Below, piece by piece: positions 19,567 to 52,801 of a stretch of DNA of 64,000 bases. The notes beneath the pieces are model-generated. The model did not search any database and was not told the DNA's origin. It worked only from the letters and a program-made list of their open reading frames with translations. Position 1 is the stretch's first letter; each line of letters opens with the position of its first letter. Position numbers and translations under genes: made by a program. Source of the DNA: an uncultured Caulobacterales bacterium (GTDB lineage Bacteria; Pseudomonadota; Alphaproteobacteria; Caulobacterales; Maricaulaceae); NCBI GenBank assembly GCA_937929915.1, contig CALFUN010000017.1, forward strand, positions 124,001 to 188,000. The letters are read 5' to 3'.

Positions 19567-19568
19567 AT

Positions 19569-21495: not shown

Positions 21496-21513
21496 GAAAG
21501 TCCTTGACCTATA

Positions 21514-21531
21514 TATTTAACATGTTAAATA
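21514..21531. promoter_or_regulatory. 18-bp perfect palindrome, probable MarR/HpaR operator
   Basis: TATTTAACATGTTAAATA is a perfect 18-bp palindrome. It sits in the short divergent region between hpaF (minus, start 21495) and the HpaG-like gene (plus, start 21564), where it would cover both promoters. A MarR-type regulator is encoded at 22436. The core TAACATGTTA recurs at 25683-25694 and 34906-34915. Assignment to that regulator is inference, and the palindrome is seen directly. Confidence 0.75.
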
Positions 21532-21563
21532 CATTGCAAATTGTAAAAGTCAAGGTGAGCAAT

Positions 21564-22424: not shown

Positions 22425-22435
22425 TCGAAAATCAC

Positions 22436-23679: not shown

Positions 23680-23756
23680 GAGACGGCTCCGCTTTCTTGT
23701 TTCATTATCAGGCTTCGATTGACAATATGACAACACGAAACCAACTTTAAATTAAG

Positions 23757-25689: not shown

Positions 25690-25694
25690 GTTAA
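25683..25694. promoter_or_regulatory. TTAACATGTTAA palindrome overlapping hpaH start
   Basis: This 12-bp perfect palindrome shares its core with the 18-bp site at 21514-21531. It overlaps the hpaH start codon (the CATG of the palindrome is the ATG) in the 10-bp gap after the reductase gene. It could serve as an internal operator for the hpaH-hpaI-ligA-ligB segment or block elongation. Binding is inferred. Confidence 0.55.
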
Positions 25695-25699
25695 TTATA

Positions 25700-28051: not shown

Positions 28052-28105
28052 AATTCTTCACCTTTATATTCGCCCCTAGTCATAGTCTTACAACTCTGGC
28101 ATATT

Positions 28106-28123
28106 GTACCTTCTGGAGGGTAC
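28106..28123. promoter_or_regulatory. Small inverted repeat around the ribosome binding site of the LuxR gene
   Basis: GTACC (28106-28110) and GGTAC (28119-28123) flank TTCTGGAG, just before the ATG at 28125. The GGAG of the ribosome binding site lies in the loop, so an RNA hairpin could affect its exposure, or the dyad could be a DNA operator in the divergent Rieske/LuxR region. Five-base arms are short, and chance is possible. Confidence 0.25.
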
Positions 28124-28124
28124 G

Positions 28125-28913
28125 ATGAAGAAAAATGTAGATTGGCGCCCATTCGCAGATCGGCTGACCACACTTGCCAAAGCAGAAGGCCATAGCCGTT
28201 TTCTCGACCGCGCCTTTGCATTTTTGAATGACTATGTGATTGTGGATAGTTGCGCCGTGTTTAAAGTCGCCGCAGATAAGGTGTCAGGCGCTGAACATCT
28301 TTGCACATTTGGAACATTACAAGCAGATGTCGCCGATAAATTGGCACAAGATTATATCTCAAATGGATTTAAAAATGACCCCATGGTGCAAACGGCCTTA
28401 TTAACGCCGCGCGTGCGAGTGCGCCGTTTACCCGACACGCAATATAGCCGCGCTTACCGCAGTCAATATTTCAACAAAGCTGGACTTATCGACAAAATCA
28501 CATCCATACATTCATCAAAAAATGTTTTATTCCTAGTGAGCTTTTACCGCATTGAAGGCCACGGCGTCTTCACAGCAGAAGATTTCAAAGATTTAGAACG
28601 CCTCGCCCCGATCATTGGGCGCTTTGTTTTACGCCATATCCGTATCAGCCGGGGTAACAAAAACTTGGCAGAGACTTATGAGGACAGAATCGCGCAGCTT
28701 GTGCAAGATACAACGCAAATTTTCGCCCATCTTTCTGCGCGCGAAAGACAGGTGTGTCAGAACATCCTTCTTGGACAACAAGAAAAAGACATCGCGCAAC
28801 AGTTAAATGTCACTCTCAATACAGTTGTGACGTATCGGCGGCGTATTTATGCAAAACTCAATATCGGGTCAAAAGCCGAGCTATTTCAACTCGCACTGAT
28901 TTCCCAAACTTAA
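28125..28913 (+). CDS. LuxR-family transcriptional regulator
   Basis: This 262-residue regulator has an N-terminal sensor region without a recognised receiver domain. The C-terminal LuxR/GerE helix-turn-helix (about 195-262) has HLSARERQVCQNILLGQQEKDIAQQL and NTVVTYRRRIYAKLNIGSKAEL. The sensor part is GAF/autoinducer-like in size, but its ligand is unknown. ATG 28125 has a strong GGAGGG site 5 nt upstream. A longer TTG frame from 28104 is less likely. It is divergent from the Rieske gene and convergent with the GlcG/HbpS-like gene, so it probably activates the upper aromatic pathway. Confidence 0.85.
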   Translation: MKKNVDWRPFADRLTTLAKAEGHSRFLDRAFAFLNDYVIVDSCAVFKVAADKVSGAEHLCTFGTLQADVADKLAQDYISNGFKNDPMVQTALLTPRVRVRRLPDTQYSRAYRSQYFNKAGLIDKITSIHSSKNVLFLVSFYRIEGHGVFTAEDFKDLERLAPIIGRFVLRHIRISRGNKNLAETYEDRIAQLVQDTTQIFAHLSARERQVCQNILLGQQEKDIAQQLNVTLNTVVTYRRRIYAKLNIGSKAELFQLALISQT

Positions 28914-28935
28914 ACTGGGGTTATTCCATCAAAGT

Positions 28936-29421
28936 CTATAATGCTTTTAAAGCGGCTTTTGCGCAATCTTCATCTTGTTTGGGCTGTCCGCCGCTCACGC
29001 CGATACCGCCAACATGTTTTCCTTCGCGCATGATAGGCAACCCGCCTTGTACAATGACAATCCCGGGCGCATAGGCCAAACCTTTCGCGCCAGGATTTGA
29101 CTCAACTAGCTTGGCAAGATCTAAGGTAGAGGCTGGAAAAGAAGCCGATGTTTTCGCCTTGCCTAACGCCAAATCAATCGCGCCTGTAATGGTGCCATCT
29201 GGCGCTTGGAACGAAATCAATCTTCCCGCATTGTCATATATGGCAACAGCCATAGGTGGCCAATCATTCGCGGCTTGAGCTGAGATACAAGCTTGGGTCA
29301 GTTCTAATGCCGTTTCGAGGTTCAAGTTTTCTGACGCTGACGCATTTTGTCCTGCACAGGTTACGCCTAAAAGAGCAAGACCGATTGATGCTGTATATTT
29401 TATGAGTTCATAGCTGCGCAT
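28936..29421 (-). CDS. Exported GlcG/HbpS-like heme-binding family protein
   Basis: This 161-residue protein has an N-terminal signal peptide (GLALLGVTCAGQNASASEN, cleavage near residue 30) and a mature GlcG/HbpS domain: LELTQACISAQA, ISFQAPDGT and GKAKTSASFP, followed by the Gly-rich GIVIVQGGLPI and GGIGVSGGQP. The family binds heme or small ligands and accompanies aromatic and glycolate catabolism genes, and its role is not settled. It lies 21 bp downstream of the MFS transporter, so probably in the same operon. Confidence 0.85.
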   Translation of the reverse strand: MRSYELIKYTASIGLALLGVTCAGQNASASENLNLETALELTQACISAQAANDWPPMAVAIYDNAGRLISFQAPDGTITGAIDLALGKAKTSASFPASTLDLAKLVESNPGAKGLAYAPGIVIVQGGLPIMREGKHVGGIGVSGGQPKQDEDCAKAALKAL

Positions 29422-29442
29422 TTAAATACCTCTTTAAGTTTC

Positions 29443-30771
29443 TTAAACGTAATCTAAAGTTTGATCCGCATGTTGCTTTTGCTCTCTCCACAACAGAAAT
29501 GCAATAATTGACGCGATTAAAATCGGCACAGAGAAAAACTGAAATAGACTTTGCGGTGTAAAGCCTGCATCAAATAAAAACCCAGCTAAAGCTGGACCTA
29601 ACACAGCGCCAAAGCGGCTAATGCCTATTGCCCATCCTGTGCCTGTCGTGCGGATATTAACGGGGTAAAGATCAGGCACCGTTGAATATAAACCTATCAT
29701 GCTGCCATGTATGAAAAACCCGATAATACCGATGAGCAAGAGCGTCGGCCCAAGACTTAGGGGCGACATCCCCAATACAAACAGAACAATACCCAAAGCT
29801 AAAAGATATACGCTCGTGACAAGTGACGGCTTTATACGCAAGCTAAATATACCAACAATGACAATACCTGCCATACCAATCAAATTAATCGACCGCCCAC
29901 CGCGATTGCCTTCAGCTTCGGTAAAGCCCATATCGATGAGAATTTTCGGTGTCCATGTCAGCAGAAAATATAATGTCGTTAATAATAAAAAGAAAGCGAG
30001 CCAAATCAAAATTGTTCGCATTTGATACTGACGGCTTAAGAGCTGACTAATCGTTGCTCCAAAGGAAGATTGCGGCTTTCTGACAGGTGGGTTATCGCCT
30101 TGCGGCAAAGAGGTTAGCTTATCTTGGCCCAGCTTTGCTCTGATTTTATTAATACGCTCAAGCGCGTCACTTCGGCCGCTCTTGGCAAGATATGACATAG
30201 ACTCAGGCAAAACCATAACAACAGGTATAAAGAGAAATGATGTCATCGCGCCAAATGCAAAGACATGACGCCACGAGCCAATATCAAGCAGCCAAGCTGC
30301 AATAAAGCCAGATAAAAATGCGCCCATAGGAAAACCAAGCTGGAAGATTGCAACCGCAACACCGCGATATTTTTGGCCTGCATATTCAGCGACTAATGTA
30401 TTGAGACTGGCAAGTATTGCCCCGACCCCCAAGCCTGTGACAATACGGCCTAAGACCAATATCATAATTGAAGGCGCGGCGGTCGCGATAATCATGCCAA
30501 CGCCTGATGCCAATAAACCTGCAATAGCGATGGCTTTACGGCCAAATTTATCAGCCAGCGGACTTAACCCCATCGCGCCTATCATCATACCTAAAAGGCC
30601 TGCACTAAACACAATACCCAAGCTAGAGCGGCTAATATCCCAACTTTCAGTAATAGCATTTGCCGCGTAGGATATGGCCAAAATATCAAAGCCATCTTGC
30701 ATATTCAGGCAAGCGAGCGCGATTAACGCAAATATTTGAAAAGACGATAGCGGCTCTTTGCCCACCTCCAT
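29443..30771 (-). CDS. MFS aromatic acid:H+ symporter (AAHS family)
   Basis: This 442-residue, 12-helix transporter has a central cytoplasmic loop. AAHS signatures are the DGFDILAISYAA region at the first helix (Asp for proton coupling), GLLGMMIGAMGLSPLADKFGRK in the second-third helix loop, GRIVTGLGVGAILASLNTLVAEY and PESMSYLAKSGR before the loop. Known members import 4-hydroxybenzoate, protocatechuate, vanillate or phenylacetates. It sits between an ALDH (27 nt upstream) and the GlcG/HbpS-like gene, as part of one minus-strand unit, so it is probably the inner-membrane importer for the aromatic substrate of this locus. Confidence 0.9.
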   Translation of the reverse strand: MEVGKEPLSSFQIFALIALACLNMQDGFDILAISYAANAITESWDISRSSLGIVFSAGLLGMMIGAMGLSPLADKFGRKAIAIAGLLASGVGMIIATAAPSIMILVLGRIVTGLGVGAILASLNTLVAEYAGQKYRGVAVAIFQLGFPMGAFLSGFIAAWLLDIGSWRHVFAFGAMTSFLFIPVVMVLPESMSYLAKSGRSDALERINKIRAKLGQDKLTSLPQGDNPPVRKPQSSFGATISQLLSRQYQMRTILIWLAFFLLLTTLYFLLTWTPKILIDMGFTEAEGNRGGRSINLIGMAGIVIVGIFSLRIKPSLVTSVYLLALGIVLFVLGMSPLSLGPTLLLIGIIGFFIHGSMIGLYSTVPDLYPVNIRTTGTGWAIGISRFGAVLGPALAGFLFDAGFTPQSLFQFFSVPILIASIIAFLLWREQKQHADQTLDYV

Positions 30772-30797
30772 CTGTGCTTCTGTCTCGCGAGTGATAA

Positions 30798-32216
30798 TTA
30801 ACCTACCATATTATAAATTTTAATATTCGTATTTGCATTAAGCCCTTCTTGAGCAAATTCAACACCTATACCAGACCCTTTAACACCTCCAAATGGAACA
30901 TTAGGCGCTAAGGCTCCGTGTTGATTAATATAGACTGTACCAGCCTCAAGACGCTTTGCGACCGTTTGGGCACGCTCGCGGCTCGCTGACCAGACAGACG
31001 CGGCCAAGCCGAAATCCAGACTATTGGCTTGGGCAATGGCATCTTCAATATCCGTATAACGAATAATCGGTAACGCCGTACCAAATTGTTCTTCATCAAC
31101 AAGTCGCGCGCCAGCTTCAATATCAGCAACAAGCGTCACAGGATAGAAAAACCCAGGCCGATCAAGCGGTTCTCCGCCTGTCAATATAGTCGCGCCGCGC
31201 GTTTTCGCATCCTCAACCAGCTCTGAGACAATATCGAATTGCATTTTATTTTGCAAAGGCCCAAGGGCTGTAGTTGGATCTAGCCCGTCACCCATAGGCA
31301 TATTATTGGCTAATGTAACAAGCTCTGCGCAGACAGCATCATAAAGATTATCAGGCACGTAAAGACGTTTCAAAGCCGCACATGTCTGGCCGCCATTAAT
31401 GAAGGCGCCCCAAAAAAGACCTTCTGCAATCGCTGCGGGGTCACAATCATCGAGGATAATTCCCGCATCATTACCGCCAAGCTCAAGCGTTAAACGCTTC
31501 AAGTTTCCAGCTGCACTTTTCATGATTTTTTTACCTGTAGCTGTGGAGCCTGTGAAAACAATTTTATCAATTCCTTCATGGGCACTCATCAAAGCGCCAA
31601 GATGACCGCCGCCTGATACAGCATTGATAACACCTTTAGGCAAAACAGTATTAATAAGCTCAACCATCCGCAATGTGCTCAATGGCGTGTTAGGCGATGG
31701 CTTTATAACAACCGTATTCCCAGCCCGAATAGCTGGCACAAGATGCCATATAGCAATCATTAATGGCCAATTCCACGGCGTTATAGACCCGATAACGCCA
31801 ACAGGCACACGATGTTGCTCTACGCGGCCTTCGTCATCATCTTTTAAAACTTTTACATCCATATCAAGACTAGATGTATATCCCGCCCAAGCCGCGCATC
31901 CACCGAGTTCAAACTCAGCGCCGAGGCCTTTTAAGGGTTTACCCTGTTCTTTCACAAGTAATTCGGCAAGCTCGGCAGCATGTTCCGTCACAATAGCGGC
32001 GATTTTATTACATGAATCTCGGCGCTCTGCATCAGACACTTTTGCCCAAGATAGTTGCGCTTTTTTAGCTGCGGCAACAGCCTCATTAAGCCCCTCTTCT
32101 GTGCATATTGGCATATAACCAACGATTTGCCCCGTAGCTGGGTTTAAAATGGCTTCACGGCCATCGCCTAAATAGTCTTGACCATTAATTGTCATTGAAA
32201 AAACAGGTTCTGTCAT
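30798..32216 (-). CDS. Aldehyde dehydrogenase for the aromatic locus
   Basis: This 472-residue NAD(P)-dependent ALDH has the oxyanion Asn in TPWNWPLMIA, the catalytic Glu in LELGGNDAG and the Cys in NGGQTCAALKRLY (about residues 160, 258 and 292). It resembles vanillin/aryl-aldehyde and gamma-hydroxybutanal-type ALDHs. Its substrate is not determined. It could oxidise a phenylacetaldehyde made by the PQQ alcohol dehydrogenase at 36092. ATG 32216 is preferred over the frame that begins with MQRYI upstream. The MFS and GlcG/HbpS genes follow. Confidence 0.85.
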   Translation of the reverse strand: MTEPVFSMTINGQDYLGDGREAILNPATGQIVGYMPICTEEGLNEAVAAAKKAQLSWAKVSDAERRDSCNKIAAIVTEHAAELAELLVKEQGKPLKGLGAEFELGGCAAWAGYTSSLDMDVKVLKDDDEGRVEQHRVPVGVIGSITPWNWPLMIAIWHLVPAIRAGNTVVIKPSPNTPLSTLRMVELINTVLPKGVINAVSGGGHLGALMSAHEGIDKIVFTGSTATGKKIMKSAAGNLKRLTLELGGNDAGIILDDCDPAAIAEGLFWGAFINGGQTCAALKRLYVPDNLYDAVCAELVTLANNMPMGDGLDPTTALGPLQNKMQFDIVSELVEDAKTRGATILTGGEPLDRPGFFYPVTLVADIEAGARLVDEEQFGTALPIIRYTDIEDAIAQANSLDFGLAASVWSASRERAQTVAKRLEAGTVYINQHGALAPNVPFGGVKGSGIGVEFAQEGLNANTNIKIYNMVG

Positions 32217-32332
32217 AATGTATCTTTGCATGTGAATTCACTCTCGCGTCCCAAAGACAGGGGCTCAAGTGAGGGATGAATACAGCCAAGCCCGTAAGTA
32301 ATAAGCTTAGGCGTTCTGAAGATATATAAAAT

Positions 32333-32379: not shown

Positions 32380-34863
32380 TTAGAAATTATACCCAAATTG
32401 CACGTAATATTCACGCGGACGGTTAAATGATCCGACTGTGAAAGGCAGCGCCCCAGCTTCAAAGCCAGACACAATAAAGCGCTCATCAGTCAGGTTATCG
32501 ACGCCAAATTTAACGTCCCAATTATCACTTGGCGCAAATTTTACAGACCCGCCAATAAGGGCATATCCATCCTGCACAAGATTTTCGACCGCAAACGGAT
32601 CATTTGTGACTTCGCTGACGTAAGAAATATTTGCATTGAGCGCAATCGCCTCCGTCATATCGTAATTTAAAGCCAAACTTGCTGTGACATCCGGTGTATT
32701 TTGCAGCGGCGTATCTTCAGTTAATTGCTGACCGAAACGATTGACCAAGAGCGGAGCTGCCGCAGGGTCAATATCCGTATATTCAGCATCCAGCAATCCC
32801 AAAGACCCGTTCAAGCGGAGCTTATCTGTGACCAAAGCTTCAAGTTCAACTTCAATACCTTTGATTTCAGCAGCCGCAATATTTTCATTTGACGGGCTAA
32901 CGCCGCGCTGTACGACGATTTGAATATCATCATAATCACTGAAGAAACCAGCAACATTTAACCGAACGCGATTATCTAAGAAATTAGATTTAAATCCGAT
33001 CTCGTAATTATCTGATGTTTCTTCATCAAAGTTAAGTTGACGCAGAACATTCGGATCATTTGGATCCGCTTGTGCCAATAATGCGTCGCTAAAGAACGTT
33101 GTCAAACGCGTTGTGAAGCCGCCTGATTTGAAGCCTTGAGAGAATGTCGCATAAGTATAGAGATCATCCGTGACTTGCCAATTTGCACCAACTCGGAAAG
33201 ATACATTATCAAATGTTTCTTCGAAAGGCTCCGCACGACCCAAAAACGTTGGATCATTTGGACGCGGCAGATCAGCAACATTCAACCCCAATGTTGAAAA
33301 TGTCGTGTTCAAATTCTGCTGACCTAGAGCGAGTGTTTTCTCTTCTTCCGTATAACGTCCGCCAAAAATTAGGCTAATATCATCCGTGAGCTTATAGTTT
33401 GCCTCGCCAAAAAGCGCATAGGCCGTTGTATCTTGGTCAAAACCGCCCGAGACTTGAATAAGGCCGCCCGCAATGGCAACGGCGTCAAGCTGTGAGCCGT
33501 TTTCATCAAAGTAATAAGCCCCAAGGGTCGCATCAAAACGATCGCCTAAATTCACATTGAATTGCAGCTCTTGGCTAAATTGCTCTGTATTTAGAGCAAA
33601 TGTCGTTTGGTCAAATACAAGCGGAGAACTATCAATATCTAAGCCAAATGTAGAATCAAGCTCGCGATAAGCTGAAATCGACTTAATGCTTAAATTATCA
33701 GACACACGCCAATCAACCGTACCTGACACACCATAGCTTTCGATATTTGCAAAATTTGCACCTGTCGCAAAGGTTTCATCAATATCATCTGTGATGAATT
33801 GCTCATTGAATTGCTGATCAGGACGTGAGCCATCCGCATTAATACTCGTATTTAAGAACGGCGATAAGCAAGGCGGCCCAGCTCCTGGCGGAACACCTAA
33901 TGGCAATCCAACACAAGCATTAAACAAACCACCCAAAGCAAAAGTTGGGTCAACTTCTAACAAAGTTGTTGGGTTGGCCGCATCACGGCGCGTTGTATTA
34001 TCGACAGAAAAGAGAACGTCTAGATCATCCGTTGGCGTCCAAGCGACTTTCGCGCGGATAGTCCCGCCAGCTTTCGCCCCCGGCTGCCGATTAGAATTAT
34101 TATCTGATGTTAAGAGTTGATCCAAAGGCACAGACGTCCCGCCTGGCCCGCCTGGTCCGCCTAATGCTGCAATATCTGACGGAAACGGTATGCGTTCTTG
34201 GAACCCATCAATCGTATCAACTGAAAAAGCCACACTTGCGTTTAAATCTTCAACGATTGGGAAATTAATAACCCCACTGGCTTTTTTCGAATCAAAATTG
34301 CCAAGGCGCAAAGTCCCATTGGCATAAAACTCATCCGTTGGATTTTGTGTGACGATATTGACGGCACCACCAATCGCATTACGACCAAAAAGAGTCCCTT
34401 GCGGCCCCTTCAAGACTTCGATGCGTTCAATATCTAATAGCTCTGTTACAGCGCCCGGCGCACGCGCAATATATACACCGTCAATATATAAACCCACACC
34501 TGGGTCTGTATTCAAGGCAAAATCCGTCTGGCCAACGCCGCGAATGAAAGCTTGAAATGTATCAACACCCGCAAATGATGAAGTGCTGTCAAAAACAACA
34601 TTGGGCGTGAACCGACCAATATCAATATTATTGTCTACACCTAAATTTTCGAGTGAATTTTGATTAAAGGCTGATACAGTCACAGGCGCAGATTGTAGAT
34701 TCTCTGATTTTCGGCGTGCTGTTACAATAATTTCGTCAAGTTGACCTGCTGATGCTGTTCCAGAATCCTGTGCAAATGCAAGACTTCCTGACATCATAGC
34801 GACTGACAAAGAGAGAAGTGAAATTCCACTTCTTTTAATATATAGATTTGAATGATTAGACAT
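32380..34863 (-). CDS. TonB-dependent outer-membrane receptor
   Basis: This 827-residue receptor has a signal peptide ending at SLAFAQ and a TonB box (DEIIVTARR). Its plug domain has IDGVYIARAPGA, RIEVLKGPQGTLFGRNAIGGAVNIVT and others (about 60-190). A 22-strand barrel ends in the typical aromatic YVQFGYNF. I prefer ATG 34863 over the upstream ATG inside the palindrome, because the signal peptide starts there. It is an outer-membrane importer for an aromatic or other large ligand, judged by its operator core and position, and a strong terminator follows. TonB/ExbBD are elsewhere. Confidence 0.9.
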   Translation of the reverse strand: MSNHSNLYIKRSGISLLSLSVAMMSGSLAFAQDSGTASAGQLDEIIVTARRKSENLQSAPVTVSAFNQNSLENLGVDNNIDIGRFTPNVVFDSTSSFAGVDTFQAFIRGVGQTDFALNTDPGVGLYIDGVYIARAPGAVTELLDIERIEVLKGPQGTLFGRNAIGGAVNIVTQNPTDEFYANGTLRLGNFDSKKASGVINFPIVEDLNASVAFSVDTIDGFQERIPFPSDIAALGGPGGPGGTSVPLDQLLTSDNNSNRQPGAKAGGTIRAKVAWTPTDDLDVLFSVDNTTRRDAANPTTLLEVDPTFALGGLFNACVGLPLGVPPGAGPPCLSPFLNTSINADGSRPDQQFNEQFITDDIDETFATGANFANIESYGVSGTVDWRVSDNLSIKSISAYRELDSTFGLDIDSSPLVFDQTTFALNTEQFSQELQFNVNLGDRFDATLGAYYFDENGSQLDAVAIAGGLIQVSGGFDQDTTAYALFGEANYKLTDDISLIFGGRYTEEEKTLALGQQNLNTTFSTLGLNVADLPRPNDPTFLGRAEPFEETFDNVSFRVGANWQVTDDLYTYATFSQGFKSGGFTTRLTTFFSDALLAQADPNDPNVLRQLNFDEETSDNYEIGFKSNFLDNRVRLNVAGFFSDYDDIQIVVQRGVSPSNENIAAAEIKGIEVELEALVTDKLRLNGSLGLLDAEYTDIDPAAAPLLVNRFGQQLTEDTPLQNTPDVTASLALNYDMTEAIALNANISYVSEVTNDPFAVENLVQDGYALIGGSVKFAPSDNWDVKFGVDNLTDERFIVSGFEAGALPFTVGSFNRPREYYVQFGYNF

Positions 34864-34905
34864 TTTTTTCCCGCATTTATTTATGAGATTATTTCGGGAG
34901 ATATA

Positions 34906-34915
34906 TAACATGTTA
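34906..34915. promoter_or_regulatory. TAACATGTTA palindrome upstream of TonB receptor
   Basis: This 10-bp perfect palindrome, with partly matching A/T flanks, lies 43-52 nt upstream of the TonB receptor ATG. It has the same core as the 21514 and 25683 sites. This supports control of the receptor by the MarR-type regulator of the catabolic genes. Confidence 0.55.
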
Positions 34916-34980
34916 AGTATTCTATCGAATATCAGACAGCATAAATTCTTGACTGAAAACGCACTACAGCATGAGACAAA

Positions 34981-35928
34981 TTAGACATAGGTGCGTTTGC
35001 GATATTGTGTTGGTGACTCATTAAATCGCGCTTTAAAGACCCGAGAAAAATGCGCCGCAGACTTAAACCCCGCGTTAAATGCGACCTCAGAAATTGTTAA
35101 AGTTTCAAAACGGCGGCTGCGCAACACTTGGGCCGCCTTATCCAAGCGCATGGCGATAATATAACCTGAAACCGTCAATCCTGCATTTGAAAAAATCGAA
35201 AACAAATAGCGCTCCGAAATCGCTAAAGCTTTCGCTACTGAAGGCGGGCAAAGAGTTTCTTCCATCAAATGTTCATTTATGTAACGCTTACATCTCTCCA
35301 GATGTGCATATTGTGTGGACGAAATATTGACTGCCGTTTCATCGGCGTTTTCAAATCCCAATATAAGTAAATCGAAGTAATAGGCCAAAAGCCGTTTCGC
35401 ATGTGTATCGCCTGAATTGGTTAATCTGGCCTCCCAAATAGATTTCACATAGCTAAAAAGAACCTGATTTATCGCAAGCTCTCTATCAGCCCTTTTGAAA
35501 GCCAATTCTTCGGGTTGTGCGTGAAACCGTCCTAAAACTTTACTCGGGATAGGAATCGACAGGATTTCCGTCTCTTCGGTAAATTCAAGTGCGTAACTTC
35601 TCGCATTATCACAGATCACGAAATCACCAGGCTGGAGCTTGACGACATCCGCGCCAAATTTTATGTCGCTGCTCCCTGTAAATTGCGTTTTGACAAGATA
35701 GCGCTCTTGCTCTGAATAGGCTCCAATCGAGCCTCTATGTTCTACACGCGCAGGCGTGGACTGCACCATAATCAAATTAAAATCTGCAATTTCACAGACT
35801 TCAAGGAAAGCTTTAAACTTGGATGAATCTGTAACCTGAATTTCCAATCCGCCAAACATCTTGCGAATGGCTTTATCCCATTCATCAACACGAGTTGTCT
35901 GAAATTTACTTTGCTTTTGTAAAAGCAT
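34981..35928 (-). CDS. AraC/XylS-family transcriptional regulator
   Basis: This 315-residue protein has an N-terminal cupin-like ligand domain of AraC-ligand type 2 (PGDFVICDNARSYALEF near residue 110). A C-terminal double helix-turn-helix (about 215-315) has FSNAGLTVSGYIIAMRLDKAA and ISEVAFNAGFKSAAHFSRVFKARFNESPTQYR. This is the FeaR/NahR-like arrangement of phenylethylamine and aromatic regulators. ATG 35928 has an AAGGAAGG site 11 nt upstream, whereas the ATG at 35967 has none. It lies between the TonB receptor and, divergently, the PQQ dehydrogenase, and could activate either. Confidence 0.85.
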   Translation of the reverse strand: MLLQKQSKFQTTRVDEWDKAIRKMFGGLEIQVTDSSKFKAFLEVCEIADFNLIMVQSTPARVEHRGSIGAYSEQERYLVKTQFTGSSDIKFGADVVKLQPGDFVICDNARSYALEFTEETEILSIPIPSKVLGRFHAQPEELAFKRADRELAINQVLFSYVKSIWEARLTNSGDTHAKRLLAYYFDLLILGFENADETAVNISSTQYAHLERCKRYINEHLMEETLCPPSVAKALAISERYLFSIFSNAGLTVSGYIIAMRLDKAAQVLRSRRFETLTISEVAFNAGFKSAAHFSRVFKARFNESPTQYRKRTYV

Positions 35929-36091
35929 TCGATACAGCCTTCCTTGTAAAAGAATATCATAAATCAATTATGATACAGACAATACGCACAGCATAACAGC
36001 ACTTATAGAGTGTAATTCATGCAGTATTAGACAGACATACGACGTAAATTAAAGTTATCATAGATAATTATGAAAATTGGCAGGATATATT

Positions 36092-39326: not shown

Positions 39327-40295
39327 ATGAAGATTATGTGTAACGAAACCAAAAAACATCAAGCCCCGGGACGTGCAGACCGCGAAGGTCTAAGCGTTAT
39401 AGAGCTATTTAAGATGTTCCCCGATAATGCTTCGGCCCGTAAGTGGCTAGAGGATTTACGTTGGGCTAATAACGAGCGTCATTGCCCTATGTGCGGTTCT
39501 TTGAACACAAAGGCAGTGCCTAACGAAAAGCCTATGCCTTATCACTGTGGCGATTGTCGCAAGTATTTCAGCGTCAAGACTGGCACTGTCATGCAGTCGT
39601 CTAAAATCGGCCTACAAAAGTGGGTTATCGCGATGTATCTTATATCCACAAACCTTAAAGGCGTGTCGAGCATGAAGCTACACCGTGACTTAGGTGTTAC
39701 TCAAAAGACAGCTTGGTTCATGGCGCAGAAAATTCGTGAAGGCTGGAATGAAGGTCAAGACAATGACAAGCTTGACGGGCCAACAGAGATTGATGAAACC
39801 TATATCGGCGGCAAGAACCGCAACAAACACAAGAGCAAGCGTGAAAACATCACTGGCGGTGTAGGCAAAGATATTGTTATTGGCGCTGTTGACCGTGACG
39901 GTGACATTCGCGTCAAGCACATTGAAAAGACAGACGGATATACCTTGCAAATTTTCGTTGAAACGAATGTTGAGCAAGGCACTGTCGTCTATACTGATAC
40001 GCACTCTGGCTATAATGGCCTGTCATATAATTATCAGCATGAGACGGTAAATCACTCAATCGGTGAATATGTGCGCGGTCAGGCTCACACAAACGGCATA
40101 GAGAGCTTTTGGGCAACGCTTAAGCGTGGATACAAAGGCACGTATCACAAAATGAGCGCCAAGCACCTATCGCGCTACATCACTGAATTTGCGGGTCGCC
40201 ATAACGTGCGTGATTATGATACACTTGTTCAGATGGAAATGCTTGCTACTGGATTTGTTGGCAAGCGTTTGCGCTACAAAGACCTTATCGCTTAG
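39327..40295 (+). CDS. IS1595-family (ISXO2-like) DDE transposase
   Basis: This is a 322-residue transposase. The N-terminal zinc ribbon reads CPMCGSLN and YHCGDCRKYFSVKTGT (about residues 52-90). A helix-turn-helix-like part follows with LKGVSSMKLHRDLGVTQKTAW. The catalytic core has the first Asp in DETYIGGKNRNKH, the second Asp in VVYTDTHSGYNGL and the final acidic/Asn region in NGIESFWATLKRGY. The gene is full length with no disruption, so the element is probably active. A 43-codon ORF follows 10 nt after the stop. Confidence 0.95.
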   Translation: MKIMCNETKKHQAPGRADREGLSVIELFKMFPDNASARKWLEDLRWANNERHCPMCGSLNTKAVPNEKPMPYHCGDCRKYFSVKTGTVMQSSKIGLQKWVIAMYLISTNLKGVSSMKLHRDLGVTQKTAWFMAQKIREGWNEGQDNDKLDGPTEIDETYIGGKNRNKHKSKRENITGGVGKDIVIGAVDRDGDIRVKHIEKTDGYTLQIFVETNVEQGTVVYTDTHSGYNGLSYNYQHETVNHSIGEYVRGQAHTNGIESFWATLKRGYKGTYHKMSAKHLSRYITEFAGRHNVRDYDTLVQMEMLATGFVGKRLRYKDLIA

Positions 40296-45559: not shown

Positions 45560-46789
45560 TTAATCAATTGGCCAATTTTCAATAACTTCAACAAAGCGCG
45601 AGAGCCATCTATTTGTTTGACTCCCATCTAAAACACGATGGTCAATCGTCAAGCTGACAAAGGCCATAGGTTTAATCACCATCATATCTTGATTGTTAAT
45701 CGTCTCGACAATGACGCGTTTTTCGAGCTTACCTACGCCCAAAATTGCAGATTGCGGCTGATTAATAATGATTGGCGTTGCGACAAGTGATCCGCTTACC
45801 CCATGATTGGAAATCGTAAATGTCCCGCCGCGCATATCCGCGGGTTTGAGTTTATTGTCCCGCGCACGGTTTGTCAGGTCTTGTAGATCGCCCGCTATGC
45901 CCAATAAGTTCTTCATTTGCGCGTTTTGCAAGACAGGCACGACCAAGCCTTTATCGCCCAAACTTGCGCCGACCCCAATATTGACATCTGCAAAAACTTC
46001 AAGGAAGTCATCATGCCAGCGGCTATTCACCTGCGGCACGGCTTTCATAGCCTCTACACAAGCTTGGATGAAATAAGCGGTATAGGTAAGCTTCACGCCT
46101 TGATTGGTAAAATTAGCTTTATGCTTCGCCCGGTGCGCAATGATTGCCGTAAAATCCATCTCAAACACAGCCGTAACATGCGGCGCTGTTGCTACAGAGC
46201 GGGACATATGTTCAGCAATACTTCGGCGCATATTGCTATGCGGCACGTTTTGATGCGTTAATGTTGCGGTGCTCGGCGTAGCAGGTTTTCGCGCTTGACT
46301 TGGATCATAGTTTTTAACGTCATTAAGCGTTAAACGTCCGCCGCGCCCTGTCCCAATAATCACAGATACATCCAAATTATTCTCTTGCACAAATTTGCGC
46401 ACAGATGGACTCAGCCGTGTTTCATGCGGAATGGTTGTGTCATGATGAGATGCCGCAACAGGCACCGAAGAAACTCTGGCTTGCGCCATTGGGGCTTCAT
46501 CCGCCTCATTTATAGTCTCATCTGTTATATTCCCACCTGCACGATCTTGCTGCGTTGAGATTTTCGCAATCACATCACCTGGCTGTAAATCTTGATCAAG
46601 CTCCACAAGGCATTCCGTAATCACACCCGCCTCTGGCGCTTCGACTTCCATCGTTACCTTATCAGTTTCAACTTCTAAAACGGGGTCATTTTTTGCAACA
46701 ACATCCCCAACACCTTTGAGCCAGTTTTGCACCTTCATCGTGGTGCCTTCTTCATTATCCGTTGGGATTTTTATTTCGATAATAGCCAT
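45560..46789 (-). CDS. bkdB: Branched-chain 2-oxoacid dehydrogenase E2 (dihydrolipoamide acyltransferase)
   Basis: This 409-residue protein has an N-terminal lipoyl domain with the lipoyl Lys in ETDKVTMEVEAP (about residue 43) and a Pro/Ala linker. A peripheral subunit-binding domain follows (LSPSVRKFVQENNLD, IIGTGRGGRLTLNDV, about 125-160), then the acyltransferase core with LTIDHRVLDGSQTNRWL at the C-terminus. It carries acyl groups from E1 to CoA. The start is 2 nt after the E1 stop, so the two genes are coupled. No E3 gene lies in the window. Confidence 0.9.
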   Translation of the reverse strand: MAIIEIKIPTDNEEGTTMKVQNWLKGVGDVVAKNDPVLEVETDKVTMEVEAPEAGVITECLVELDQDLQPGDVIAKISTQQDRAGGNITDETINEADEAPMAQARVSSVPVAASHHDTTIPHETRLSPSVRKFVQENNLDVSVIIGTGRGGRLTLNDVKNYDPSQARKPATPSTATLTHQNVPHSNMRRSIAEHMSRSVATAPHVTAVFEMDFTAIIAHRAKHKANFTNQGVKLTYTAYFIQACVEAMKAVPQVNSRWHDDFLEVFADVNIGVGASLGDKGLVVPVLQNAQMKNLLGIAGDLQDLTNRARDNKLKPADMRGGTFTISNHGVSGSLVATPIIINQPQSAILGVGKLEKRVIVETINNQDMMVIKPMAFVSLTIDHRVLDGSQTNRWLSRFVEVIENWPID

Positions 46790-46791
46790 GA

Positions 46792-48903
46792 TTAAAACGC
46801 AATCAGTTGACGGATTTTGGTTTCAATATCATCTTCGCTTGGCACTGCAGCGTTGAGCAAAACAGGATTATGCGGGCTCGGAATATCTGGCATTGTCAAA
46901 CGGGATAAAGGCGCATCCAGATCCATAAAACACGTCTCGCCAATTTCACTCAAAATTTCTGCGCCAAAACCTGCTGTGCCATTATCTTCATGCACAACAA
47001 GGCAGCGATGCGTTTTTTTAACAGACGCAATTACAGCCGCCTTGTCCCAAGGGATCAGCGTACGCAGGTCAATAACATCAACACTATGACCAGAGGCTTT
47101 GGCCGCATTCTCGCAGCGCTCCACCATCGCGCCCCATGTCACAATGGTAAGCTCATCGCCTGAAAGCGTTGTCTTAGCCTTGCCAAATGGTAAAACATAA
47201 TCATCGCCCGGATAAGGCCGTCTGGCCCAAGCATGGTCAAGCATCGCGCGGTGTTCAAAGAAAAAGACAGGGTCATTGCCTCGCATAGAGGCGCGCAGTA
47301 ATCCAACCGCATCTTCTGCATTTGACGGCACAGCCACACGCCAGCCTACAGCATGAGCAAATTGCACTTCATTGGTTTGGCTATGCCACGGATCACCGCA
47401 CTTAAAGAACCCGCCCGGAATACGCACCGTAATCGGAGCTGCAAAACGGTTCTTTGTCCGCCAGCGCATCGTGCCGCAATCATTGAGCTGTTCGACAGCT
47501 GGGTCTGCATATTTACGAAACTGGATTTCGGGGACAGGTACAAGGCCCGCGATTGCCATACCAACGGCGCGGCCAATAATACCTTCTTCTGATAGGCTTG
47601 TATCAAACACGCGCGCGTCCCCATATTTGTCTTGAAGTCCCATTGTGACCGCATGTACACCACCTTTAGGGCCAACATCTTCGCCAAATACAACAACTTT
47701 GTCATTTGTTGCTAGTTCAAAATCAAGCGTTTTACGAATAGCCGTAACCATATTGATACGCTTGCCCTCTGGCTTTGGCGTGTCAGATGATGCAGGGAAA
47801 TCATGACCATTTTGATGAATACCGCCCATAGTTTGTGTGATAATATCTCCGTTTTCATCCTTTTCGGAAAACGCAAATGTCGCAACAGTTTCAGGATCAG
47901 CCAGCGGGCGAGCTAAAGCCGCATCCAAAGCTACGCGCACATCATTTTGCGCGCGAGTTTTTATCGCGTCCCATTCGGCTTCGCTCATACGCTCTGGGAC
48001 AAGGTAGGATTTAAGTTTTGGCAGCGGGTCGCGCGACCATTCTTCTGCAACTTCTTCTTCGGATTTATAAGCTTGCGTATCTTGCGCGCTATGACCTTGC
48101 AAGCGCGGAACCCGTAAGCGCAGCAAAACTGGCCCCTTACGGCCACGGACTTGCTCAACGGACTTTTGGATCAAATCTGCGGCTTCAGATGGGTCAGACC
48201 CGTCCCCGTCATGAATTGTCAAACCTTTAAAGGCGGCTAAATTTGCAGCAATATTTCGCCCGGGCGTTTGCAAATCAGAGCGCACAGAAATCCCAAACCC
48301 ATTATCTTCAATAAAAAACAAAATCGGAAGCTGCAAGGTTGTTGCCATTGTCAAAGCCGACCAGAACCCATTGGTCGCGACAGACGCCTCGCCGCCCAAA
48401 ACAACAGCAATCGAATTTTTATAATCTGAGTCTTTTAGCACAGAGTTATAATATTCAACCGCTTGCGCCCACCCTGCACTCGGCGTGTATTGCGCGCCTA
48501 CACCGCCGCACATTGGCAGCCCGCTAGCACCGTCTTTATTCGGAAAGTTAAACGTTACACCAATATCGCGCCCGTCACTATAGCCGCCAGAGCGTGCCAA
48601 AGGCCCAGCCAGCGCATCTTCAGGCTCAACACCAATACTTAAAAGCATAGGACGCGAGCGGTAATAACCGCCCATTGCATCATGTTTGTTATTTATAAGA
48701 CTGCCCAGCATAACTTGCGCAACATCATGTCCGCGAGCGGAAAATTGATATAAAATCTGCTTAGACGGCAGCAATTCTGTCTCTTCAATGTGATCCATAG
48801 TTCGCGACATATGCACAAGATATGTGATGCGTTCCCAGTCAAAATGTGGGTTGATAGAGGCAGCTTCATCAGCATTGGGGATTTTTAAGGCAGGTTGGCT
48901 CAT
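46792..48903 (-). CDS. bkdA: Branched-chain 2-oxoacid dehydrogenase E1, alpha-beta fusion
   Basis: This 703-residue E1 fuses alpha (about 1-345) and beta (about 380-703) subunits in one chain. The alpha half has the TPP region GGEASVATNGFWSALTMAT and NGFGIS. The beta half has VVFGEDVGPKGGVHAVT, EEGIIGRAVGMAIAG and the terminal HEDNGTAGFGAEI. Such fused E1 proteins of branched-chain 2-oxoacid dehydrogenases occur in several bacteria. It decarboxylates 4-methyl-2-oxopentanoate and relatives to acyl-CoA with E2/E3. ATG 48903 is preferred, and the frame to 48909 starts with GTG. Lrp is divergent. Confidence 0.9.
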   Translation of the reverse strand: MSQPALKIPNADEAASINPHFDWERITYLVHMSRTMDHIEETELLPSKQILYQFSARGHDVAQVMLGSLINNKHDAMGGYYRSRPMLLSIGVEPEDALAGPLARSGGYSDGRDIGVTFNFPNKDGASGLPMCGGVGAQYTPSAGWAQAVEYYNSVLKDSDYKNSIAVVLGGEASVATNGFWSALTMATTLQLPILFFIEDNGFGISVRSDLQTPGRNIAANLAAFKGLTIHDGDGSDPSEAADLIQKSVEQVRGRKGPVLLRLRVPRLQGHSAQDTQAYKSEEEVAEEWSRDPLPKLKSYLVPERMSEAEWDAIKTRAQNDVRVALDAALARPLADPETVATFAFSEKDENGDIITQTMGGIHQNGHDFPASSDTPKPEGKRINMVTAIRKTLDFELATNDKVVVFGEDVGPKGGVHAVTMGLQDKYGDARVFDTSLSEEGIIGRAVGMAIAGLVPVPEIQFRKYADPAVEQLNDCGTMRWRTKNRFAAPITVRIPGGFFKCGDPWHSQTNEVQFAHAVGWRVAVPSNAEDAVGLLRASMRGNDPVFFFEHRAMLDHAWARRPYPGDDYVLPFGKAKTTLSGDELTIVTWGAMVERCENAAKASGHSVDVIDLRTLIPWDKAAVIASVKKTHRCLVVHEDNGTAGFGAEILSEIGETCFMDLDAPLSRLTMPDIPSPHNPVLLNAAVPSEDDIETKIRQLIAF

Positions 48904-49089
48904 TATCACGGTCTCATCTGTTTTATCATGCTCATTACCTTAAGCCTTAGAGTGTTTCATGCCATTCTCATATGTATATTCCATATTTAGAAGAATATAT
49001 GACTATAAATTCTCTTAAAAGCAGGTTATTTAACTTATATCTGTATAGAGTATAGTTTTTATATATATCAGGATTTGAGAGTTTTCATT

Positions 49090-49548
49090 ATGGACACAAT
49101 CGATTTTAAAATTCTCGAAATTTTACAAACAAATGGACGCATCAGTAATATTGACCTCGCCCAGCAAGTCAATTTGTCCCCAACGCCCTGCCTGAAACGC
49201 CTGCGTAAATTGGAGCAGTCTGGCGTCATTTCAGGGTACCGCGCGACAGTTGACCCAACAAAGCTTGGCATTAATATTAGTAGCATGGTGCTTATCCGTA
49301 TGAATGATCATACGCGTGAATCTGTGAATAAATTTGCCGAAGCTGTGAAGAAAATTCCTGCGATTACGGAATGTTACATGGCTACGGGGCGCGTTGATTA
49401 TGTCGCGCGCATTCACGCAAAAGATTTCAAACATTACGAGGAAATTATCCGCAACGACATTGCCCGCCTGCCCAATATTATGTCGATGGAAACCTTATTT
49501 GTTATTGGAGACAGTATCACGGATAATGTTATAAAATTTGATAGTTAG
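49090..49548 (+). CDS. Lrp/AsnC-family transcriptional regulator
   Basis: This 152-residue regulator has an N-terminal winged HTH (DTIDFKILEILQTNGRISNIDLAQQVNLS and PTPCLKRLRKLEQSGVI) and a C-terminal RAM ligand domain with PAITECYMATGRVDYVARI. It is divergent from the E1/E2 operon, the usual place for a BkdR-type activator responding to branched-chain amino acids. ATG 49090 replaces a longer frame from 49075. No ligand can be named. Confidence 0.88.
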   Translation: MDTIDFKILEILQTNGRISNIDLAQQVNLSPTPCLKRLRKLEQSGVISGYRATVDPTKLGINISSMVLIRMNDHTRESVNKFAEAVKKIPAITECYMATGRVDYVARIHAKDFKHYEEIIRNDIARLPNIMSMETLFVIGDSITDNVIKFDS

Positions 49549-49558
49549 CTCGCTCACT

Positions 49559-52500
49559 TTAAAGATCAATTTCTACAACACCGCCTTCACTCGCAGCACG
49601 TGATTGGCACAAGATTATATTTGTCTTACGCTGTTTATTTGATAGTACAAAATCACGATGTTCGACTTCGCCGCTGACAAGACCGCATTTGCATACACCG
49701 CAAATACCATCCGAGCATTTCACATCCACATGTATGCCTGCGGCTGCTAAAGCGTCAGTTGGAGCTTGATTGGCCGCCACCGGAATGTCGCGGCCTGATT
49801 TTGCTAGCTTTAGCGTAAAATCAAAATTCTCATAATCAGGCGTTTCAGGGATTGAGAAATATTCCTTATGCAGAGCCTCATCAGGCCAGCCTTGGCGCAG
49901 AGCTGCCATAAGCACCGCGCCCATATAGCGATCTGGCCCGCAAGTATAAAGATGCCAATTTGGCTTATATGTCGACAATATCTTATCCAAATCTGCCCGC
50001 GTTCCATCATCTGAGAAATGCAAATGCACCTTATCAAACCAAGGCGCAGTTTTGATGTCAGTCAAAAAAGACGCCGCAGCTTCGTTTTTACAAGAATAGT
50101 GAAATTCAAAATCACGGCCTTCGCGGTGCAAGCTATGAGCCATAGAGATCATGGGGGTAACACCAATCCCCCCGCCCATAAGAAAGGCTTTGGTCAGGCT
50201 GGACTCCAATGGGAAATGATTAATCGGCTTTGACACAAAAACTTTACGGCCTTCGGTAAAGATACGATGCAAAAGCGCCGACCCGCCGCGCCCTTCATCT
50301 TCGCGCAGAACACCAATTTGGTATTTACTCTGATCCGCAGGGTCGCCTGATAAGCTATATTGGCGGAAAAACTCTGGCGCGATGACAACATCCAAATGCG
50401 CGCCAGCTTCAAATTTTGGCAAAGGCGCGCCATCAAGCGAGCTAAACTCATATTTCGTGATACCGTCTGTTTGCACATCCGCTTTAGAAATTTTAACCCG
50501 CATCACAGGAGCATTTTGCAAATCATAATCTGGGTATTTATGCGCGATATTATCGGTGTTTCCTGCCTTCAATCTGCGCTTATATTCATCTGGAGTTAGC
50601 ATATCTTCATAGGCTTTTATGCCCGCCTCTCTATCCATCGGAAACGGGAATGGGTAAGGCGGCGGGGCGAGGTTGGCAGGGTAAACCGCCAAGGTTTGAT
50701 CTTCGAATTTTAAATCTAAGTCAACTTGCAGATCTCTTTGACTCACGCCATTTTCAGTCAGCGTGTAAGGGCCTTCATCGACCATTTCTATATCCCACCA
50801 CCACTTTTTGACGGGATTGATGCGGCCATTACCAAGCTTGTCATCAAGCTTGGCAAGTGAACTTGCCAGGCTAGGCACATGTGTTGCCGCCCAGCGGAAC
50901 GGCGCTTCGGCAAATAGACCTTCAAGGTTCCACGGACAGGTTTTCATACACCGTCCGCACATAGCGCCCTCTTTTTGAGTAATTCGGTAAGTCGTGCATT
51001 TCTGGCTATCTGACTTCCAAATCTCATAGCCATTAAACATGGTTTTCGGGCCAGCCGTAATCGCCCCGCTCGGACATTCACGCGCGCATTTATTGCAATT
51101 ATTACAAAAATTTTGCAGGCCAAAGTCAATCGGCTGGCTATGCGCGAGCGGCATATTGGTTGTTATCACACCCGATTTTAAGCGCGGCCCTAAAAATGGA
51201 TTTAAGATAACTTCGCCAATACGGCTAACCTCGCCAAGCCCTGCCAAGAGCAATAATGGCGGCTGCAACACCTCTCCGTCCATAACCGTATGGCTCCGCG
51301 CACTATAACCCATACCGCGGATATGCTCGGCAATAATACCGCCCAAGAGCGAAAAGCGTAGATAAGCCCGCATTGACTGTGAACAGGCAATCCAGTCATC
51401 CCCCGCTGCACCTTCCATGGTTTCATGGCCTTGGTCAATCACCATAGAAATTGCGTTTTTATGATAAGGCACAAGCGCCTCACCAACCGCATCATGCGAA
51501 TAATACACCCAATCAGGACAGCGCGAAATCCCAACAGCATCTGCTCCCAGAAAATATAAAGCGGCATGAATGTTATCCGCATTTCTCTGTGCATCTGTCG
51601 TTGTCTGCGACGCTGTCGGTGCCACATCGCCATCTTGCATCAAAACAAAGGCAGCTAGCGGGCGGCGCGGGCCATAGCTTGCCGCGCTTTTACGGACATA
51701 ATTCCCGTTCTTGGCGCCGTCTTGCACAGTTTTGCCCATGTCGCCAAATATAGCGCGAGCAAACATATCTGTACGTTTCGGTACACGCGGAATGCGCGGC
51801 TCATCCATAAAGGTGGTGGGCAGATCAACCCGTTTGATTGTCTCAAATGGAAACCCGCCATCTTTGAATTTACGCGATTTATACGGCACCGCATTAAAAA
51901 CGTTTTTCTCAAAGCCCATCCCAACCCACCAAGCTGGGCCATGGCTTTTCATTTTTTCTATAATAGATTGGTTAGCCCGTGGTTTGAGCGGCATGTCTGG
52001 CGCAAGCTCAAATGTTGTTGTTATGGCGCATATACCAAAATGCGTGCCTAAAAATGGATTACTAATCACAGGGCCAGACGGCGTTTCAATGACTTCGCTG
52101 AGCCCAGCCGCGACAGCCAGCTTGTTCAAATTCACATCCGAACAACTCGCCGTATGGCTACGCGCTTCATACCCTAAAAGGCGGATATAATTAGACAACA
52201 CAACCGATGTTTCAGCCCCGCGAACGCTCGCGCGTTGGGCCTGCGCATTTTGGAACCAATCCGTACCCGCCTCGCCCGCTTTGGGGTCGCGCGGGTATTC
52301 ATAGAGACAGATTAAGGCGTGGGTGTGATGGGCCACGCTACGCGGCGGGGCGGCCATTGTGTCCTTTAGCTCTGCCATAACAACATCAATGCCGCTGGCC
52401 AAAGTCTGTGTCTGTTTCGTAGCAAGATCATTTGCCAGGGCCGCAACATCTGGATTGCTCACAGGCTTATCCAAAAACATCTCTGCTGTCAGCGCACATA

Positions 52501-52801
52501 CCCCAACCTGAGAAGCATCATGATAATAAGCAAAAGCTTTGAGGTGCTGGCTACGCTCTTGCGGGTCGGTTGGCAAAACACCACGCTCTTTTTTGACCAT
52601 ACCGTCACGAATAGCATCCAGCATCGCCGCATATGGCCCCATCGCATTGATAAGATTGTCTCGGTTATCAGCGTCATGAAAGGATAAAGGCGCCATATCG
52701 GGCACGGAGGATAAATTAGCAGCTTGGCTTTGACGCGCTAACCGTTCTAACGGGAATGGCCCTAAATGTACGGGTCTGTTTTTATATGAAAAAAAGCGCA
52801 T
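49559..52801 (-). CDS. Self-sufficient reductive dehalogenase fused to a flavin/2Fe-2S reductase
   Basis: This 1080-residue protein has no signal peptide. Residues about 1-330 and 380-560 form two related cobalamin-fold halves. Both contain GY-ARSHT (residues 210-217 and 498-505) and NPFLG (residues 248-252 and 534-538). Two 4Fe-4S clusters follow, with Cys 566, 569, 572, 576 and Cys 602, 615, 618, 622. From about 760 a phthalate-dioxygenase-reductase-type module begins. Its flavin site is RQYSLSG (813-819), the NAD(P)H site GGGIGVTP (876-883), and the C-terminal plant-type 2Fe-2S Cys are 1029, 1034, 1037 and 1065. The architecture matches catabolic reductive dehalogenases such as Comamonas BhbA and the RdhA of Nitratireductor. 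The halogenated substrate is unknown, and an aryl halide such as a halo-hydroxyphenylacetate is a guess. Confidence 0.85.
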   Translation of the reverse strand: MRFFSYKNRPVHLGPFPLERLARQSQAANLSSVPDMAPLSFHDADNRDNLINAMGPYAAMLDAIRDGMVKKERGVLPTDPQERSQHLKAFAYYHDASQVGVCALTAEMFLDKPVSNPDVAALANDLATKQTQTLASGIDVVMAELKDTMAAPPRSVAHHTHALICLYEYPRDPKAGEAGTDWFQNAQAQRASVRGAETSVVLSNYIRLLGYEARSHTASCSDVNLNKLAVAAGLSEVIETPSGPVISNPFLGTHFGICAITTTFELAPDMPLKPRANQSIIEKMKSHGPAWWVGMGFEKNVFNAVPYKSRKFKDGGFPFETIKRVDLPTTFMDEPRIPRVPKRTDMFARAIFGDMGKTVQDGAKNGNYVRKSAASYGPRRPLAAFVLMQDGDVAPTASQTTTDAQRNADNIHAALYFLGADAVGISRCPDWVYYSHDAVGEALVPYHKNAISMVIDQGHETMEGAAGDDWIACSQSMRAYLRFSLLGGIIAEHIRGMGYSARSHTVMDGEVLQPPLLLLAGLGEVSRIGEVILNPFLGPRLKSGVITTNMPLAHSQPIDFGLQNFCNNCNKCARECPSGAITAGPKTMFNGYEIWKSDSQKCTTYRITQKEGAMCGRCMKTCPWNLEGLFAEAPFRWAATHVPSLASSLAKLDDKLGNGRINPVKKWWWDIEMVDEGPYTLTENGVSQRDLQVDLDLKFEDQTLAVYPANLAPPPYPFPFPMDREAGIKAYEDMLTPDEYKRRLKAGNTDNIAHKYPDYDLQNAPVMRVKISKADVQTDGITKYEFSSLDGAPLPKFEAGAHLDVVIAPEFFRQYSLSGDPADQSKYQIGVLREDEGRGGSALLHRIFTEGRKVFVSKPINHFPLESSLTKAFLMGGGIGVTPMISMAHSLHREGRDFEFHYSCKNEAAASFLTDIKTAPWFDKVHLHFSDDGTRADLDKILSTYKPNWHLYTCGPDRYMGAVLMAALRQGWPDEALHKEYFSIPETPDYENFDFTLKLAKSGRDIPVAANQAPTDALAAAGIHVDVKCSDGICGVCKCGLVSGEVEHRDFVLSNKQRKTNIILCQSRAASEGGVVEIDL

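Follow-up and report, generated by a model that had tools for sequence, protein, structure and literature searches.

A predicted self-sufficient reductive dehalogenase of the BhbA/JtRdhA class in an uncultured Caulobacterales bacterium

We analyzed a window of 64,000 nucleotides (the whole stretch of DNA under study, positions 124,001 to 188,000 of contig CALFUN010000017.1, assembly GCA_937929915.1) from an uncultured Caulobacterales bacterium, and in it a gene located on the minus strand at positions 49559-52801. Its product, hereafter the window protein, is in all likelihood a self-sufficient catabolic reductive dehalogenase, cytoplasmic and oxygen-tolerant, that belongs to the class represented by BhbA and JtRdhA, as judged from its sequence and by analogy with members of that class. 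JtRdhA of Jhaorihella thermophila is described as dehalogenating ortho-bromo and ortho-iodo phenols with NADPH, air included (PMC10463259). Because JtRdhA does so, the same reaction with NAD(P)H in air would be the best prediction for the window protein. A first-pass annotation of this DNA had called the substrate unknown, which overstates the matter, since this analogy points to a substrate class.

The enzyme class is already characterized, and the window protein adds a further member that largely confirms known biology. The gene would be a probable laterally acquired debrominase in an alphaproteobacterial family otherwise nearly devoid of it, and bears on the spread of aerobic debromination. 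Why JtRdhA accepts bromine and not chlorine is left as an open question in PMC10463259, and the window branch could be a reasonable additional enzyme for addressing it.

A dehalogenase and its reductase in one chain

The open reading frame runs from an ATG at 52801 to a stop at 49559 and encodes 1,080 amino acids with no internal stop. The gene and its parts are as follows.

49559-52801, minus strand: predicted self-sufficient catabolic reductive dehalogenase gene, 1080 codons and a stop
52331-52486, minus strand: residues 106-157, a 52-residue stretch where NpRdhA has about 10 residues (sequence comparison)
51986-52336, minus strand: residues 156-272, vestigial copy of the cobalamin-binding domain (internal BLASTP alignment)
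51128-51676, minus strand: residues 376-558, putative active cobalamin-binding dehalogenase domain, limits approximate (sequence and fold match)
50936-51106, minus strand: residues 566-622, two 4Fe-4S motifs (Cys 566, 569, 572, 576, 602, 615, 618 and 622)
49847-50506, minus strand: residues 766-985, predicted FMN-type flavin and NAD(P)H domains similar to phthalate dioxygenase reductase, limits approximate
49562-49819, minus strand: residues 995-1080, 2Fe-2S ferredoxin domain (Cys 1029, 1034, 1037 and 1065)

The first-pass annotation had placed a dehalogenase, two 4Fe-4S clusters and a reductase in one chain, and this layout was borne out. The NCBIfam "reductive dehalogenase" model TIGR02486 matched at 217.2 bits (curated cut-off 160.35), and the two 4Fe-4S motifs lie C-terminal to the cobalamin domain, as in proteins of the TIGR02486 type. 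Among the best 25 of 44 NCBIfam matches, models on the reductase half were all under cut-off. In Pfam, a 4Fe-4S dicluster (residues 565-624) and a 2Fe-2S domain (residues 1000-1068) scored above cut-off, and the NAD-binding models scored below it. The closest solved structures by sequence were NpRdhA of Nitratireductor pacificus (4ras/6zxu; 566 bits, residues 1-105 and 158-747) and, second, phthalate dioxygenase reductase (PDR; 2pia, 204 bits, residues 766-1073). The two corresponding parts are consecutive stretches of one chain. The second match covers almost all of the 321 residues of PDR, which is a separate protein, whereas its window counterpart is fused to the dehalogenase.

PDR carries flavin mononucleotide (FMN). 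The match to PDR, together with the FMN described for JtRdhA (PMC10463259), makes FMN more likely in the window protein than the flavin adenine dinucleotide given in the first-pass annotation.

One further feature is shared with catabolic RdhA proteins, and a second may be. Residues 156-272 align with residues 444-558 of the same chain (internal BLASTP, 36% identity, E-value 6e-16), and in the first, vestigial copy Ser192 and Gly256 occupy the places of the catalytic Tyr480 and Lys542. A vestigial duplication of the cobalamin domain is described for catabolic RdhAs in PMC10463259. The stretch at residues 106-157, which keeps a length of 51-52 residues throughout the 86 rows of the alignment presented below, may correspond to the insert specific to fusions that is described for JtRdhA.

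Reading the N-terminus by eye (the protein begins MRFFSYKNRP) revealed no twin-arginine motif of the twin-arginine translocation (Tat) type. The gaps to the neighbouring genes, 10 bases on the side of the Lrp-type gene and 93 bases on the side of the lipoyl-ligase-like gene, leave no space for an adjacent rdhB, which was sought at these positions only. The absence of a signal peptide and of an RdhB partner beside the gene, both noted earlier, was thus confirmed to this extent. Neither mark of a respiratory RdhA, a Tat signal or an RdhB anchor gene alongside, was seen in the N-terminus read by eye and in the two gaps.

Catalytic residues, cluster residues and fold

NpRdhA numbering was transferred through an alignment of residues 158-668 (499 aligned positions, 232 identical), which located the catalytic trio as follows.

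51362-51364, minus strand: codon of Tyr480, equivalent to NpRdhA Tyr426, the proton donor (alignment)
51176-51178, minus strand: codon of Lys542, equivalent to NpRdhA Lys488 (alignment)
50984-50986, minus strand: codon of Arg606, equivalent to NpRdhA Arg552 (alignment)

We then considered conservation in an alignment of 86 rows, comprising the window protein and 85 full-length relatives. These came from 86 loci tried, one of which (L066) was excluded because its contig starts inside the gene; two rows (L002 and L087) hold an identical protein and were both counted. Tyr480, Lys542 and Arg606 were invariant in 86/86 rows, as were Phe347, Ser476 and Met477, which are the same in NpRdhA. The eight 4Fe-4S cysteines, aligned with those of NpRdhA, were likewise invariant in all 86 rows. 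For the 2Fe-2S cluster, Cys 1029, 1034 and 1037 were invariant in all rows, and Cys 1065 in a selection of 40 sequences.

The first-pass annotation had assumed a uniform shift from NpRdhA, had expected the trio near residues 416, 478 and 540 and, finding Arg at 478, had raised the possibility of a different catalytic set. Residues 478 and 540 are arginines that stand two places before Tyr480 and Lys542, and the true trio is complete. An altered catalytic set was excluded by the NpRdhA alignment and the 86/86 conservation.

Structure prediction and comparison with NpRdhA, proposed earlier as a check, were carried out with an AlphaFold2 model built from 35 sequences (mean predicted local distance difference test score 76.5, predicted template modelling score 0.74). 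The fold of the model matches that of NpRdhA: in a fold search, NpRdhA chains took all of the top 14 places among PDB structures (template modelling scores, by target length, of 0.86-0.89). Rank 15 went to a self-sufficient P450 (6kbh) and rank 16 to PDR (2pia), followed by 7ylr and another P450 (6laa).

The annotation had also weighed whether the domain would fit better with a QueG-like epoxyqueuosine reductase fused to a reductase, which would act on tRNA. Both QueG and RdhA belong to class III of the cobalamin enzymes (PMC10463259), and the QueG model TIGR00276 does match the window protein weakly (27-28 bits). Its 27.8 bits, however, lie far below the cut-off of 200, whereas the dehalogenase model reaches 217 bits against a cut-off of 160. 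The genome also encodes a separate QueG (413.6 bits, contig C5), the NpRdhA trio is complete and NpRdhA heads the fold search. A QueG origin was ruled out by the scores and the separate genomic QueG, and we give this alternative a negligible probability.

Comparison with known enzymes and proposed mechanism

The window protein combines the features of the BhbA/JtRdhA class: no Tat signal (by eye), no adjacent RdhB, a vestigial domain duplication, a C-terminal PDR-type module and the catalytic trio. JtRdhA is described in the same terms, with no Tat signal, a duplicated cobalamin domain, two 4Fe-4S clusters, a C-terminal PDR-type domain and the NpRdhA trio (PMC10463259). In contrast to JtRdhA, the window protein seems to belong to a host of another alphaproteobacterial order, its close kin within the family (L002) being labelled Caulobacterales. 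BhbA of Comamonas sp. 7D-2 (plasmid pBHB, WP_015585978, locus L082; named BhbA in PMC10463259) has the same full-length architecture and catalytic residues, with 49-50% identity. Its setting is unlike that of the window gene: a catabolic plasmid carrying ligAB-type genes and a gene for the substrate-binding protein of a transporter. Its pocket signature also differs (F, S, S and A at 346, 368, 473 and 506). Architecture and catalytic residues agree with the earlier proposal of a BhbA-class enzyme in which a soluble RdhA carries its NAD(P)H reductase as a fused part.

Of the two relatives named in that proposal, BhbA stands as a fusion. The Nitratireductor enzyme does not: NpRdhA (4ras, 6zxu, 6zxx, 6zy0 and 6zy1) shares the trio and the fold of the dehalogenase half, but is a 704-residue chain without a reductase domain, has about 10 residues in place of the 52-residue stretch and differs in several pocket residues. 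A further comparison, by description only, concerns Ros_A3X954 of Roseobacter sp. MED193, a marine alphaproteobacterial catabolic reductive dehalogenase without Tat signal that debrominates 2,6-dibromophenol. The position of its 4Fe-4S motifs, given as 283-345, suggests that it has no duplicated domain (PMC13101508).

Cofactors, electron path, chemistry, preference for bromine and iodine and oxygen tolerance can be proposed for the window protein from JtRdhA and NpRdhA. Hydride from NAD(P)H would pass to the FMN of the C-terminal reductase, and single electrons would then flow through the 2Fe-2S cluster and the two 4Fe-4S clusters to a base-off cobalamin. An ortho-bromo (or iodo) phenol would be bound with its halogen placed on cobalt and its phenol oxygen gripped by Ser476, Lys542 and Arg606. 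Tyr480 would protonate the ring carbon during cleavage of the carbon-halogen bond, releasing halide and a less halogenated phenol. Speculatively, this product could enter the homoprotocatechuate-like gene set of the same window.

Distribution and ancestry

The first-pass annotation had described relatives as few. Scanning genome contigs confirmed 222 relative stretches, of which the best 80 were kept; 79 of these begin their match at residues 1-4 and carry it to residue 1073 or beyond, and only the truncated locus L066 does not. Plasmid records gave eight matches covering at least 80% of the query, including BhbA on pBHB. In the class-level sample of 385 genomes, 27 had a match at an E-value of 1e-120 or better: nine full-length, the genome of the window included, and 18 with the dehalogenase part only. 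In its own family, the full-length gene was found in two of 137 genomes (that of the window and G022), and the other nine family genomes matching at an E-value of 1e-30 contained the reductase part alone. The order-level sample of 398 genomes again gave the full-length gene in two. The enzyme class is well populated, yet nearly absent from the host family.

The G022 copy is 81% identical to the window protein and is identical to the L002 protein, which comes from a metagenome-assembled genome (MAG) labelled Caulobacterales. In a maximum-likelihood tree built from the 86 rows by a quick method, the window protein grouped with the G022/L002 copy (support 100), next with proteins from MAGs labelled Cellvibrionales (L003) and Exilibacterium (L004; support 97), and then with those of gammaproteobacterial (L005) and Planktomarina (L006) MAGs (support 96), the branching order within this group being unresolved. 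The window branch is about 59-68% identical to most of the aligned marine fusions. Over the 2.7 kb upstream and 10 kb downstream covered in L002, the genes around its copy differ from those around the window copy. Patchy distribution in the family, together with next kin in gammaproteobacterial MAGs, suggests lateral transfer of the gene, in one direction or the other, subject to the caveat that MAG labels are fallible.

An acquired gene could also have decayed or lie unused, without function in its host, and the restriction of the full-length gene to two of the 137 family genomes, in different neighbourhoods, would fit such a fate. However, the frame is full-length, all catalytic and cluster residues are retained, and neither of the two copies contains a stop at 81% identity. 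We consider this explanation very unlikely, and a functional dehalogenase remains preferred.

In one other genome (G651, contig C14, 897885-899690), the PDR part is missing from a dehalogenase match that sits within an open frame of 1,259 residues, where another domain may be fused to the dehalogenase.

Genomic environment

On one side of the dehalogenase gene lies an Lrp-type regulator gene (49075-49548), next to genes for a 2-oxoacid dehydrogenase with a fused E1 and an E2 component (45560-48909). On the other side, a divergent lipoyl-ligase-like gene is followed by genes for a CitE-like lyase, a thiolase and a 3-oxoacid coenzyme A-transferase and by carboxylase genes. We compared flanks of up to 10 kb, many of them shorter, at 87 loci (86 fetched and the window). 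The commonest flanking clusters occurred in Rhodobacterales loci and looked unrelated by eye (response-regulator/GGDEF, HAD-type, methyltransferase-like). In 26/87 loci, but not in the window, the dehalogenase gene is immediately preceded by a MarR-like gene of the same orientation. The CaiB-like, E2, E1, lipoyl-ligase-like, CitE-like and thiolase neighbours matched nothing in the flanks of the remaining loci, and the Lrp neighbour had five matches (36-47% identity).

Some sharing of neighbours was seen. A pair of carboxylase genes and one for an acyl-CoA dehydrogenase-like protein lie 5-10 kb upstream of the window dehalogenase; three Pseudovibrio loci (L027, L038 and L073) have cluster mates of these, which start 2-10 kb upstream of the dehalogenase and are oriented as in the window. 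In L040, an Lrp-type gene (29% identity) stands convergent directly after the dehalogenase, the same arrangement as in the window. Both cases may be chance, and neither indicates the substrate; the flank comparison of the 87 loci gave no answer on it.

The E1 gene (46792-48909) encodes alpha and beta parts fused in 705 residues. In the 17 other genomes of the genus, matches running across both halves reached at most 37% identity and those to the beta half up to 45%. The lipoyl-ligase-like gene gave matches of 31-38% only, in four genomes besides its own among 18 of the genus. On the basis of these low-identity matches, the stretch around the dehalogenase seems accessory.

Farther away, the window carries a set of genes for aromatic catabolism. 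The first-pass annotation, which saw no haloaromatic genes among the neighbours, had missed this set; it lies at 18.2-32.2 kb and not beside the dehalogenase.

18199-32231: homoprotocatechuate-like set (profile matches)
19569-21104: HpaE (774 bits, cut-off 638)
24886-25689: HpaH (422 bits, cut-off 351.5)

HpaE and HpaH lie 24-28 kb from the dehalogenase. The set also includes an HpaI-like aldolase (321.5 bits, under the cut-off of 368.8), an HpaG-like gene below its cut-off, an extradiol dioxygenase of the LigB type, a Rieske oxygenase of the VanA type along with a reductase, two further aldehyde dehydrogenases and a transporter whose match to the aromatic acid/H+ symport model stays below cut-off. 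Beyond the set, a TonB receptor and an AraC-type regulator are encoded at 32380-35967.

Substrate and role in the host

The homoprotocatechuate-like set is a possible sink for the dehalogenated phenol. JtRdhA is described as acting on 3-bromo-4-hydroxyphenylacetate almost as fast as it acts at best (99% of its top rate) and as enabling E. coli W, which has a 4-hydroxyphenylacetate pathway, to grow on this compound (PMC10463259).

Cobalamin supply was considered at the genome level. The other B12 users found were MetH and QueG; MetH is split as two adjacent open frames (contig C12 of the same genome, G000, 101744-105303; L111 and L112). No cbiB was found in the genome with a model that gave matches in 8/14 control genomes, which makes it probable that the host cell imports B12 and does not make it.

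Several observations weigh against the proposed assignment and reaction. The iron-sulfur loops of the structural model have low confidence, and JtRdhA (WP_104007082) did not turn up in the sequence searches made, the likeness to it being one of description. The pocket has M346 for F290, C473 for A419 and V506 for N452 of NpRdhA, and a loosely aligned loop has A363/Y368/V369 for K307/F310/P311 (roles of the NpRdhA pocket residues as given in PMC7565698). The C473/A419 position adjoins the second halogen site of NpRdhA. The immediate neighbours of the gene give no hint of haloaromatics. No TonB-receptor match exceeded the BtuB cut-off (best 58.4 vs 599.7 bits). Finally, the genome, 91.7% complete, yielded no match to the HpaB hydroxylase family, which makes a growth pathway uncertain.

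Some of these points would suit an enzyme of the same architecture whose true substrate lies outside simple ortho-bromo or ortho-iodo phenols and whose role is detoxification rather than growth. Chlorinated phenols or a brominated natural product, for example a bromotyrosine or bromotyramine derivative, are candidates. No haloaromatic gene adjoins the dehalogenase, HpaB was not found, and the residues by the second halogen site are unlike those of NpRdhA. No neighbours match around the nearest kin, L002 (2.7 kb covered upstream), and an amidohydrolase-like gene (by eye), belonging to one cluster, occurs within about 4 kb in 3/7 rows of the wider clade (L003, L005 and L006). That gene is, however, absent beside the window gene. 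The pocket residues of the window protein are the usual ones among the aligned marine fusions (M346 in 68/86 rows, C473 in 59/86, V506 in 83/86 and Y368 in 80/86), a different set being present in BhbA and in a homologue on a Nitratireductor OM-1 plasmid. Moreover JtRdhA, a marine fusion, is described as accepting bromine and iodine substrates and, among those tested, no chlorinated one. We regard a substrate of this other kind as unlikely, though worth serious consideration, and dehalogenation of ortho-bromo or ortho-iodo phenols stays the preferred prediction.

A bolder and rather improbable idea is that the window protein, its 81% identical sister and the gammaproteobacterial fusions form a separate transferred sub-branch that would dehalogenate a marine brominated natural product beyond the simple bromophenols, moving as one-gene detoxification cargo without a dedicated pathway.

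Elsewhere in the window, an IS1595-type transposase gene is located at 39327-40295, about 9 kb from the dehalogenase, and has a cluster mate in the flank of locus L029.

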